Positions 39,077-54,631 of a stretch of DNA of 64,000 bases are shown piece by piece (the first letter of the stretch is position 1; each line of letters begins with the position of its first letter). The notes under the pieces were generated by a model, which made no database searches, had not been told where the DNA came from, and was given only the letters and a program-made list of their open reading frames with translations. A program made the translations under genes and the position numbers. The stretch covers positions 1,076,644-1,140,643 of the forward strand of contig NZ_CP022463.1 in assembly GCF_002224485.1 (NCBI RefSeq), in the 5' to 3' direction. Source of the DNA: Sinomonas sp. R1AF57. GTDB taxonomy: Bacteria > Actinomycetota > Actinomycetes > Actinomycetales > Micrococcaceae.

Positions 39077-40048
39077 ATGACGTTGACGACCGAACAGGCC
39101 GCGTGGTTCGCGGAGACCTTCGAACGGCTCGCCGCCAACGTCGGCCAGGCGGTGCTCGGCAAGGAGCACGTCGTGCGCCTCGCGTTCACCGCCATGCTCG
39201 CCGAGGGGCACATCCTGCTCGAGGACGCCCCCGGGACCGGGAAGACCTCCCTTGCCCGTGCGCTCGCCGCCACCGTCCAGGGGACCAACTCCCGCATCCA
39301 GTTCACTCCCGACCTGCTGCCCTCCGATGTCACCGGCGTGACGATCTACGACCAGCGGAGCCAGCAGTTCGAGTTCCACAAGGGCCCGATCTTCGCCAAC
39401 ATCGTCCTCGCCGACGAGATCAACCGGGCCTCGCCCAAGACCCAGTCCGCGCTCCTGGAGGTCATGGAGGAGTCCCGCGTCACCGTCGACGGCGTGACCT
39501 ACGACGCCGGCCGGCCCTTCATGGTCATGGCCACCCAGAACCCCATCGAGCAGGCGGGAACGTACAGGCTGCCGGAGGCCCAGCTGGACCGCTTCCTCAT
39601 CAAGACCTCGATCGGCTACCCGGACCACGCCTCGACGGTGCGCCTCCTGGGCGGCTCCTCGGTCAAGGACCGCTCCCGGGACCTCAGCCCGATCATCACG
39701 ACCCACGCGGTGGCGGAGATGGCCGAGCTGGCGGCCCAGAACCACGTGGACACGGCCGTCCTCGAGTACATCTCGCGGCTGTGCGAGGCCACCCGCAACG
39801 CCCCCGAGACCCGGCTCGGGGTGAGCGTGCGCGGTGCGATCGCCATGGTCCGCGCCGCGAAGGTCTGGGCCGCGTCCGACGGCCGGAACTTCGTCCTCCC
39901 GGACGACGTCAAGGACCTCGCCCCTGTCGTGTGGACCCATCGCTTCGTCATGGACCCCGAGTCCGAGTTCGCCGGCGTCACCGCTGAGCGCGTGCTCGAG
40001 CGCGTCCTCGGCGAGGTCGCAGCGCCGCAGTCGCGCGCCGCCGTCTGA
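39077..40048 (+). CDS. MoxR-type AAA+ ATPase
   Basis: 323 residues. Walker A APGTGKTSLARA, Walker B/DEIN LADEINRASPKTQSALLEVMEE, sensor 1 MATQNPIEQAGTYRLPEAQLDRFL, and a helical lid. MoxR ATPases work as chaperones for metal insertion or complex assembly and are typically encoded before a DUF58 protein, as here. AGGGGG stands just upstream of the ATG. It is the first gene of a nine-gene co-directional cluster reaching 54.6 kb. Confidence 0.93.
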   Translation: MTLTTEQAAWFAETFERLAANVGQAVLGKEHVVRLAFTAMLAEGHILLEDAPGTGKTSLARALAATVQGTNSRIQFTPDLLPSDVTGVTIYDQRSQQFEFHKGPIFANIVLADEINRASPKTQSALLEVMEESRVTVDGVTYDAGRPFMVMATQNPIEQAGTYRLPEAQLDRFLIKTSIGYPDHASTVRLLGGSSVKDRSRDLSPIITTHAVAEMAELAAQNHVDTAVLEYISRLCEATRNAPETRLGVSVRGAIAMVRAAKVWAASDGRNFVLPDDVKDLAPVVWTHRFVMDPESEFAGVTAERVLERVLGEVAAPQSRAAV

Positions 40049-40052
40049 CGCC

Positions 40053-53100: not shown

Positions 53101-54631
53101 CAAGCCGTGGCTGGCCGAGCTGCCGCAGACGTACGACTTCGCGAAGCTCCCCAACCCCCGCACCGACGAGCGGCTCCTGCTGGGCGTCGTGGACGACCCG
53201 GCACACCAGAGCCAGCCGACGTTCTCCTACGAGCCGGACCGGGACGGCAACATGGCCCTCTACGGCACGGGCGGCGCCGGCAAGTCGGCCGCCCTGCGGA
53301 CCATCGCGGTCGCCTCTGCCGTCACGGTGCGCGGCGGCCCCGTCCACGTGTACGGGATCGACGCCGGGTCGCGTGGCCTGCACATGCTCGCCGACCTGCC
53401 GCACGTCGGCGCGGTGATCGACGCGGACGACGCCGAGCGCGTGGGGCGGCTCATGCGGCACCTTGCCGCTCTGGTCGACGAGCGCTCGGACCGCTACGCC
53501 GCCGCCCGCGCGGGCACGATCGGCGAGTACCGCCGGCTCGCGGACCGCCCTGACGAGGCACGCATCATCGTCCTGATCGACGGCATGGGCGCGTTCCGCG
53601 AGCTCTACGAGTACTCTGCGGACAACGACGTGTTCGACCTGCTCACGCAGCTGGCGTCGGATGGCCGTGCAGTCGGCGTCCACCTCGTCATGACGGGCGA
53701 CCGCACCAACTCCATCCCGGCCTCGATCGCGGCGAGCGTCCAGAAGCGCATCGTCCTGCGCATGACCGGCGAAGACGACTACATGATGTTCGGCCAGCCG
53801 AAGGATGTCGTGACGCCCCAGTCTCCTCCGGGCCGCGGCGTCGTCGACGGCCTCGAAGTCCAGCTCGCCGTGTTGGGAGGGAACGCCAACGTCGCTGTCC
53901 AGGCGCGCGAGGTGGTCAGGCTTGCCGCGGCGATGCGGCGTCAGGGCGTCGCGGAGGCGCCGGGCATCCGGAACCTGCCCGACGTCGTCATGGGCGCCGA
54001 CCTCCCGCTCGACAGCGGCCGCGTTGCGCTCGGCCTCGAGGACTCGACCCTCGAACCGCTCTTCATCGACCCGTCCGGGGCCTTCATGCTCAGCGGGCCC
54101 CCGGGGTCTGGACGCACGACTGCGCTGGTGGCCCTCGCGGCGGCGCTGCGGCGCGCGCGACCCGAGGTGCGGCGCGTGTACGTCGGGTCCCGGAAGTCCC
54201 CCATCGCGGGGCTGCCGCTGTGGGACGCGAGCTATGTCGGGGAGGACGCGATCGCTGCCGCGGCGGACGGGCTCCAGTTGGACGTCGGCGTGCGCGAGTT
54301 CGCCCTGTTCGTCGAAGGGCTGCCAGAGTTCGACTCGACGCTTGCCGAGGCCGGGCTCTCGTCGCTGATCACCTCGATGGACCGGGAAGGCCTGTGGGTG
54401 GTCGGGGAGTCCGAGACCTCGGGCTGGAGCTCCGCGTGGAGCCTGTCCCAGCCGTTCAAGAACGGTCGGCGCGGGCTCCTGCTCAACCCGACCGAGATGG
54501 ACGGGGACTCGCTGCTCAGCACGTCGCTCGGCAGGATCCGCAACCCCAAGTACGTCCCCGGCCGCGGCTACTACGTGGCCCGCGGACGGGCGCTCAAGGT
54601 CCAGACGGCGTACGAGGACCTGACCGTCTGA
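50165..54631 (+). CDS. EssC/EccC-like FtsK/SpoIIIE translocase with FHA domain
   Basis: 1488 residues, GTG start. Residues ~1-95 are a beta-rich, ubiquitin- or degenerate FHA-like domain; ~105-195 a clear FHA domain (SLIGRGDGADVPL, SKRHARI, NSSNGLVV); two membrane helices lie at ~245-285. Three FtsK-type ATPase modules follow: ATPase 1 Walker A GGTTGAGKSEFL (~706) with Walker B VIVVDEF (~806); ATPase 2 GTGGAGKSAAL (~1033) with LIDGMG instead of DE; ATPase 3 GPPGSGRTTAL (~1310), Walker B also degenerate. This active-degenerate-degenerate pattern and the FHA N-terminus match type VII EssC. No WXG100 genes adjoin. Confidence 0.92.
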   Translation: MRIRLTLRRDPEAAADLAVTVDGLATVGDVARELWLADPARRQEGHISPGALSGLTLRVDESVLAGGMTGRVLDPAANLLESGLRQGSTVSISRVDPDSPAGRIDRGPAAATLRVLSGPDAGKEFSLPAGASLIGRGDGADVPLTDPLASKRHARITVGETIEIADLNSSNGLVVDGHTVSRAVLASSDAVTLGDTTVSVVGLGHGAGRSQTSPLVPFNRSPRVVPRFPQQERELPEGPQRPKDQPFPVVMIMLPIVMGVVMFVVLQSVLSIVFMAMMPLFAIGMWLEFRRQTRKELREETRIFEERLAEFARQMTELQDVERAVRLQEAPSVAETVDSVYRLGPLLWTHAPEHREFLSVRLGLGAAPSRVRVSVPKEGQTLPEFTRRLHEAAERFAVVDAVPITASLRQGGGLGIAGPRGLVENVARGVVLQIAGLHSPAEVAIAGLASHESKERWAWLQWLPHVGSPHSPLAGDHLAAGSAAGSLLLTRLEELLNVRAGADPSSADLRAAGGRRGAVKDEHEGTTEAIVPTVVVLVEDDAPVDRGRLTRIAELGPDVGIHVVWVAAGAEQLPQCCRDFIVVDAEHGATSGQVRLGRHTYPVSCESVDAALAVQLGRMMTPVVDVGKPVDDDSDLPRSVSYVTLAGKDIADDAGTVAERWRQSNSVRGTAVPNPKAKGSLRALVGSKGVEPFFLDLKNDGPHALVGGTTGAGKSEFLQSWVLGMASAYSPDRVTFLFVDYKGGAAFADCVHLPHTVGLVTDLSPHLVRRALTSLRAELHYREHLLNRKKAKDLLAMERAGDPDTPPYLVIVVDEFAALATEVPEFVDGVVDVAARGRSLGLHLILATQRPAGVIKDNLRANTNLRIALRMADEADSEDILGERTAAYFDPSIPGRGAAKTGPGRVQGFQTGYASGWTTDRPAKPRIDIAEMDFGTGASWESPVDPSDRGPETEGPNDIARMVRTVSTAADRLAIDVPRKPWLAELPQTYDFAKLPNPRTDERLLLGVVDDPAHQSQPTFSYEPDRDGNMALYGTGGAGKSAALRTIAVASAVTVRGGPVHVYGIDAGSRGLHMLADLPHVGAVIDADDAERVGRLMRHLAALVDERSDRYAAARAGTIGEYRRLADRPDEARIIVLIDGMGAFRELYEYSADNDVFDLLTQLASDGRAVGVHLVMTGDRTNSIPASIAASVQKRIVLRMTGEDDYMMFGQPKDVVTPQSPPGRGVVDGLEVQLAVLGGNANVAVQAREVVRLAAAMRRQGVAEAPGIRNLPDVVMGADLPLDSGRVALGLEDSTLEPLFIDPSGAFMLSGPPGSGRTTALVALAAALRRARPEVRRVYVGSRKSPIAGLPLWDASYVGEDAIAAAADGLQLDVGVREFALFVEGLPEFDSTLAEAGLSSLITSMDREGLWVVGESETSGWSSAWSLSQPFKNGRRGLLLNPTEMDGDSLLSTSLGRIRNPKYVPGRGYYVARGRALKVQTAYEDLTV

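Follow-up and report, generated by a model that had tools for sequence, protein, structure and literature searches.

The stretch of Sinomonas sp. R1AF57 DNA analysed here (the window: 64,000 nucleotides, positions 1,076,644-1,140,643 of a 3.94-Mb genome on a single contig) carries nine same-strand open frames, of which the last encodes an EssC-type translocase, the motor of a type VII secretion system (T7SS), and the others a MoxR-DUF58-transglutaminase group, a membrane Ser/Thr kinase, a phosphatase and proteins with FHA domains (Table 1). Seven of the nine stop-to-stop frames passed a filter based on GC content by codon position; the transglutaminase and kinase frames, both of which have a long overhang upstream of the gene, did not. 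A first-pass annotation, made from the sequence alone, had described nine co-directional genes that mostly overlap by 4 nt. The nine genes were confirmed and six of the eight junctions do overlap, but only four by exactly 4 nt, and these counts depend on the start codons that we chose for genes 2, 6 and 8. The gene families that it named were recovered as well, eight of the nine proteins matching a Pfam family in profile searches; however, the transglutaminase core has an Asp at the expected Cys, and the supposed third FHA protein (g8) was rejected as such after searches of Pfam, NCBIfam and the PDB gave no significant match. By eye, g8 looks like a degenerate FHA domain with a winged-helix-like tail; its mean column identity is 70% over 11 orthologues (11 of 20 rows; the others were left out because the stretch chosen contains stop codons or, in one case, without a stated fault). 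Rfam and tRNA scans of the 64 kb found nothing.

Table 1. Genes and domains of the translocase operon, and the gap behind it (window positions)
Feature	Position	Strand	Basis
MoxR-type AAA+ ATPase	39077-40048	+	Pfam AAA_3 5.6e-63, AAA_lid_2
DUF58 membrane protein, two predicted transmembrane segments	40053-41309	+	Pfam DUF58 8.4e-11; hydropathy
TgpA-like membrane protein, transglutaminase core, GDDEQYA motif	41306-43684	+	Transglut_core 3.5e-21, TgpA_N 1.9e-8
RDD membrane protein, C-terminal FHA	43681-44985	+	Pfam RDD 4.2e-20, FHA 7e-7
PP2C phosphatase	44982-45890	+	Pfam PP2C_2 1e-13; motifs
PP2C-fold pseudophosphatase (residues 1-155), linker, zinc-knuckle-like stretch, FHA	45877-47469	+	
Membrane Ser/Thr kinase, one predicted transmembrane segment at 48903-48959	47466-49289	+	Pfam Pkinase 3.4e-40; PknB best PDB relative
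g8, highly conserved, no family match	49274-50164	+	no Pfam/NCBIfam model, no significant PDB match
EssC-type translocase: probable ubiquitin-like N-terminus, FHA, transmembrane region, three P-loop domains	50165-54631	+	FtsK_SpoIIIE 1.5e-50; NCBIfam; PDB
Probable ubiquitin-like (beta-grasp) domain of EssC	50165-50449	+	28-orthologue profile; predicted model topology
EssC FHA domain, phosphothreonine-binding residues complete	50489-50773	+	
essC-ligA gap	54632-56298	.	HNH gene 54799-56142 (-) here; WXG100 gene after essC in 23/36 relatives

The three-ATPase, FHA-bearing translocase proposed at first pass stands: the protein combines FtsK_SpoIIIE and FHA matches with three Walker-A-like motifs (the third with Arg instead of Lys), its best NCBIfam model is TIGR03928, and its PDB relatives include 4nh0 (1.9e-68) and YukB (5e-64). 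With these EccC and YukB relatives, and a TIGR03928 match below cut-off, the locus has the multi-ATPase membrane motor of the EccC/EssC kind that is expected of a T7SS. Only three named translocase records were found, from Sinomonas mesophila and two strains of S. atrocyanea (84-85% identity). In an EssC tree built by a quick method, with long branches, 56 loci from several families and from beyond the order fall into one well-supported clade; moxR, duf58 and the transglutaminase gene (tgm) lie nearby in 46 of these, and two of the other ten sit at contig ends. What we take, from the usual motif names, to be the phosphothreonine (pThr)-binding residues of the FHA domain are invariant in 28 of 28 EssC orthologues. 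Residues 1-95 of EssC probably form a ubiquitin-like domain. A profile of 28 orthologous N-termini matched a redesigned ubiquitin at 5.9e-4, five of its six further matches (all weak) were also ubiquitin-like, and the predicted model runs strand-strand-helix-strand-strand-strand, which fits a beta-grasp topology; structure prediction covered parts of two of the proteins. A profile search of the whole genome for a separate YukD gave no match, with a positive control in B. subtilis.

The operon as a whole is conserved. A window-type EssC (identity from about 61% upwards; 55-65% for the split gene of G124) occurs in 36 of the 197 family genomes, and in 35 of the 36 the order moxR-duf58-tgm-RDD/FHA-PP2C-FHA-kinase-g8-essC is kept on one strand. 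At the 36th locus (G061) eight genes stand in order in the fetched stretch, and moxR, just outside it, was found in a second fetch. Since the same order and strand recur across the EssC loci of the family, the arrangement is not due to chance. Other families, and bacteria outside the order, retain it in part or in full; G393, outside the order, has all nine genes together with three WXG100-like frames.

The lack of a WXG100 gene had led the first-pass annotation to envisage a system whose substrates are encoded elsewhere and which lacks further membrane components. At the R1AF57 operon there is indeed no WXG100 gene: once short chance matches are set aside, the stretch from essC to ligA matched nothing but an HNH gene and the ends of its two neighbours, which rules out a hidden WXG100 gene or remnant in that gap. 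Yet this is not a property of the system, and a WXG100-free system is ruled out by the 23 of 36 family loci in which a WXG100 frame lies downstream of essC. WXG100 is thus the usual last gene; it sits between essC and ligA in close relatives, at a distance of roughly 100-230 bp from essC in G004, G008, G011 and G045. In the window its place is occupied by the HNH gene (HNH/DUF222-like by eye), and the gap of G013 holds both a WXG100 gene and an HNH gene 50% identical to that of the window.

The WXG100 gene that is gone from the operon is kept elsewhere. A genome-wide profile search returned four WXG100 matches, of which two exceed the Pfam cut-off and two fall short of it. The substrates supposed to lie elsewhere have candidates in a short WXG100 gene at 3,208,199-3,208,480 and in a gene at 26 kb for a 332-residue protein whose WXG head is related; an RDD protein is encoded two genes away from the latter. 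At E up to 1e-3, a match to the 3.208-Mb type, be it a short gene or the start of a long protein, occurs in all 36 genomes with window-type EssC and in 3 of the 161 others (E 9e-6 to 5e-4). Fisher's test gives 2.6e-36 with kinship ignored; by genus the counts are 7/7 against 2/25 (p 1e-5), and within Sinomonas 5/5 against 0/6. Of the 48 genomes in which the transglutaminase gene occurs without EssC, just one has this WXG100; it is therefore EssC that the WXG100 follows. We place high confidence in the EssC/WXG100 pairing. The WXG100 linked to the motor that one expects of a T7SS is found in the 23 relatives and as a paralogue in this genome, not at the window locus itself.

The distal WXG100 locus is syntenic in four congeners that have the system. 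Within each of these the operon and distal copies agree at 283-285 of 285 bases, although the identity of the encoded proteins to the R1AF57 copy is no more than 69-87%. These near-identical pairs (L050/L138, L012/L139, L011/L140 and L010/L141; 2.2 Mb apart in G013) look like the outcome of gene conversion, and conversion between operon and distal copies would allow one of the two to disappear with the function preserved. The absence of WXG100 at the operon is, on this comparison, a local loss in this strain. By eye, L010, L011, L012 and L050 share a leader before the operon WXG100 gene, and three of the four leaders contain the near-palindrome GGGGAGGAGTCCCC. Several long WXG proteins of relatives (L142-L157) are scattered and polymorphic, with tails that match alpha/beta-hydrolase (3.8e-37), DUF2515 (7.2e-9) or, weakly, calpain (0.053), or that are glycine-rich and hydrophobic by eye; they are effector candidates. 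A different WXG100 protein is encoded at C1:581881-582129 (L013), beside what appear by eye to be RNase H-like and histidine-kinase genes.

The further membrane component follows a similar course. A giant Ig/FN3 gene is absent from the R1AF57 locus, but all 31 EssC loci in other genera of the family carry one directly upstream of moxR, on the same strand, with no more than about 0.7 kb between the match and moxR. In 21 of these loci the match is longer than one copy, perhaps because of a second one. In G018, which has the other genes without EssC, the protein encoded upstream of moxR has 2046 residues, with 11 Big_9 stretches and three fn3 domains. The giant was also found in G045, G042 and G393 and, weakly, in G395 and G454. 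Mutual exclusion of giant and EssC was ruled out once the EssC loci had been given longer flanks. No match to the giant exists anywhere in the 64-kb window, nor upstream of moxR in the four congeners; its absence from this spot is a loss common to the five Sinomonas with the locus, and that of WXG100 a loss in R1AF57. A cyclase-like gene (37768-38931, by eye) abuts moxR in Sinomonas and lies upstream of the giant in seven loci of other genera.

The remaining genes provide the elements of a threonine-phosphorylation circuit. The kinase and the PP2C protein have what we take to be their active-site and catalytic motifs. Threonine motifs recur in the linkers of three proteins: TRVR (48378-48389) with TVLR repeats in the kinase, two stretches (46567-46602 and 46885-46908) in the pseudophosphatase-FHA protein, and TRFS (44608-44619) in the RDD-FHA protein. 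The kinase motif T-[RK]-x-[RSTK] is present in 40 of 41 orthologues (shuffled mean 1.2); in the pseudophosphatase-FHA linker HDGxT is found in 38/41 (0.0) and Txx[RKHQ] in 39/41 (4.6), and the RDD-FHA motif is found in 27/38 (2.3), a count that leaves out three of 41 proteins without an FHA anchor. In the transglutaminase core an Asp occupies what we take to be the position of the nucleophilic Cys in 62 of 65 aligned orthologues, and the TgpA-like protein is predicted to be a pseudoenzyme family-wide.

We consider it likely that this operon is an actinobacterial T7SS, similar to the T7SSd subtype discussed below, that exports WXG100 proteins and WXG-headed effectors under a presumed phosphorylation mechanism; the joining of a type-VII-like exporter to a Thr-kinase/phosphatase/FHA circuit, already suggested at first pass, is supported. 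In such a system the membrane kinase would sense an extracellular signal and phosphorylate Thr motifs of three linkers: its own juxtamembrane one and those of the RDD-FHA and pseudophosphatase-FHA proteins. The resulting pThr marks would then be bound by the FHA domains of the latter two proteins and of EssC, so that the EssC motor is recruited and switched on, and the PP2C phosphatase would reset the switch. The fused ubiquitin-like domain would replace a separate YukD/EsaB protein. MoxR, presumed to be a chaperone ATPase, DUF58 and the Cys-less transglutaminase may constitute an envelope-assembly module that elsewhere partners the giant Ig/FN3 protein, and in R1AF57 the substrates would be the 3.208-Mb WXG100 protein and the 332-residue WXG-headed protein. 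Gating of EssC by phosphorylation appears well motivated; in the switch as laid out here our confidence is moderate, and in the function suggested for the MoxR-DUF58-transglutaminase module it is low.

A number of observations weigh against this interpretation. The TIGR03928 score of EssC (553.5 bits) falls short of the curated cut-off of 778.4. Single-sequence searches with its N-terminus are weak (YukD at 0.013 and UBX at 0.0023, each in 1 of 28 members, and nothing for the window's own), and in a fold search with the EssC model the listed rows all span the FHA domain, none bearing on residues 1-95. Thirteen of the 36 EssC loci, that of the window among them, have no operon WXG100; a broader WXG profile, used at E up to 1 and without a positive control, found nothing at the other 12. 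The RDD-FHA gene is split over two frames in G011 and G086, as is essC in G124. No more than 25 of 41 kinases have TVLR-type motifs, kinship among the sequences is ignored in the shuffles, and the Thr motifs are candidate phosphorylation sites, with phosphorylation itself presumed. Finally, 48 of the 161 genomes without window-type EssC have a transglutaminase match (at least 45% identity in 41), which rules out MoxR-DUF58-transglutaminase as a T7SS-only part, and 15 of 20 fetched loci have all eight genes from moxR to g8 with no window-type EssC beside them (RDD-FHA being relocated in three of the 15, and the other five loci partial or ended by a contig; three of the 20, G172, G108 and G171, are from genomes with a 43-46% identical EssC elsewhere). 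The eight genes therefore form a module able to stand alone, and as they do so in many genomes the kinase, the FHA proteins and the MoxR group need not serve secretion.

From this it is a short step to supposing that moxR to g8 are an independent envelope or adhesion module for a giant Ig/FN3 surface protein, with essC and WXG100 as mere operon neighbours and a kinase circuit that does not control secretion. The EssC-free loci, spread over many genera, speak for it: the giant is matched in 19 of the 20 (in one partly; the 20th is ended by a contig), ligA adjoins the module in 6, and a similar gene set, the PFNA operon of Bifidobacterium, is read as serving host communication in the available part of its description (PMC8430577). 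We nevertheless think it unlikely. Five Sinomonas without a giant at the locus still keep both module and EssC; across 11 Sinomonas genomes the transglutaminase gene and EssC are jointly present (5) or jointly absent (6); EssC itself bears an FHA domain with intact pThr residues; and the moxR-duf58-tgm-essC linkage extends beyond the order. That the R1AF57 locus is a decaying T7SS, which has lost the giant and the operon WXG100, with an HNH gene now where the latter was, and may have ceased to secrete, seems less likely still: genes are missing at both ends of the operon, but all nine frames are open, the key motifs are present, the WXG100 paralogue and the long WXG protein are kept, and four congeners that retain the operon WXG100 likewise have no giant there.

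One may also ask whether the WXG100 proteins of this genome are exported by another motor. In the genome FtsK_SpoIIIE matches, besides the window EssC, only an orphan EssC-like protein at 2.20 Mb, a 981-residue frame that is presumably FtsK, and a further protein weakly. No complete ESX locus with an EccC of its own, a possibility raised at first pass, was found. EccB had no match in a profile search of the genome, in which the control genomes were silent too. The orphan (C1:2200954-2205156; L017:8455-12657) has 1400 residues, bears an FHA domain and falls below the NCBIfam T7SS cut-offs; additional EssC/FtsK-like matches occur in 58 of 58 genomes of the relatives set. Its existence, and a WXG100 match of some kind in 57 of those 58 genomes, most without window-type EssC, are compatible with the orphan being the exporter, but the 3.208-Mb-type WXG100 tracks the window-type EssC and we regard this as very improbable. 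The T7SS built around the window EssC remains our preferred explanation. Should it be correct, the operon with FN3, MoxR, DUF58 and transglutaminase genes that bifidobacteria share with many soil actinobacteria gains a concrete job linked to protein export, the apparent lack of a ubiquitin-like subunit in T7SSd is explained, and soil bacteria offer a T7SS whose phosphorylation control is testable at named sites. The locus is also a caution that one example is insufficient for calling a system WXG100-free.

Among known systems the most distant parallel is the threonine-phosphorylation pathway of type VI secretion, whose components we take to be PpkA, PppA and Fha. There too a kinase and an FHA protein gate a secretion machine, but the machine is unrelated and the likeness an analogy only (PMC11217815, section 16, as far as available). 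T7SSb (EssC/Yuk) shares the FHA-transmembrane-ATPase motor, and supplies the best model, TIGR03928; its EssC FHA domain has no pThr site and is paired with the pseudokinase EssB (PMC11217815, available sections), whereas here a pThr site and kinase motifs are present, and its separate YukD/EsaB has no counterpart in the R1AF57 genome. T7SSe shares a kinase, a PPM phosphatase, an FHA-EssC and a separate FHA protein (TseJ), but in the same sections it is confined to Bacillota, has a separate TseB, and its TseJ begins with DUF6382 rather than the PP2C-like fold seen here (PMC11217815).

Closer comparisons, made by family and not by sequence, are with T7SSd and the PFNA operon. As far as its description is available, the latter has kinase, fn3, MoxR, DUF58, transglutaminase, phosphatase and FHA genes (PMC8430577); kinase, MoxR, DUF58 and transglutaminase likewise stand in one cluster here, with the phosphatase and FHA genes, in a different order, and the FN3 giant in the window's relatives. 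The main text of that paper does not contain the terms type VII, WXG, EssC or T7SS, just as the words 'transglutaminase' and 'MoxR' are absent from the main text of PMC11217815, and a literature search that took in few subscription papers returned none combining type VII secretion, MoxR and transglutaminase.

The T7SSd of Actinomycetota is described, in the available sections, as having a WXG100 protein, an FHA-EssC with a conserved pThr site, a kinase, TsdH and the giant Ig-like TsdI, a ubiquitin-like gene not having been found (Garrett, Higginson & Palmer 2024, PMC11217815). With it the operon shares the Actinomycetota host, the FHA-EssC with its pThr residues, a transmembrane kinase that is by family the counterpart of TsdD, one WXG100, the very large Ig-like envelope protein (in the window's relatives only) and the lack of a separate ubiquitin-like gene. 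It differs in the extra MoxR, DUF58, transglutaminase, RDD-FHA, PP2C and pseudophosphatase-FHA genes, in the probable ubiquitin-like domain fused to EssC, and in that neither a TsdI-like giant nor the fn3 gene of PFNA is found in the window. With no TsdI in the window, and with a comparison that takes in WXG100, EssC, kinase and TsdI, we do not file the locus as T7SSd, though it may work like one. Gating is not a new idea as such, since phosphorylation control has been proposed for several T7SS subtypes (PMC11217815, available sections); new are the EssC fusion with its probable ubiquitin-like domain, the pseudophosphatase-FHA protein, the Cys-less transglutaminase and the conserved linker Thr motifs. 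More tentatively, and with somewhat less than even confidence, we propose that PFNA and T7SSd are parts of one Thr-phosphorylation-switched T7SS, with a kinase-written T-x-x-R/S code, FHA readers, an EssC-fused ubiquitin-like subunit and a MoxR-DUF58-pseudotransglutaminase group that assembles a giant with which Sinomonas has dispensed. Judged by its families, the R1AF57 operon appears to be a genuine variant of the T7SS that has undergone local gene losses and that combines the gene lists of T7SSd and the bifidobacterial PFNA operon and is nearest to these two in plan.

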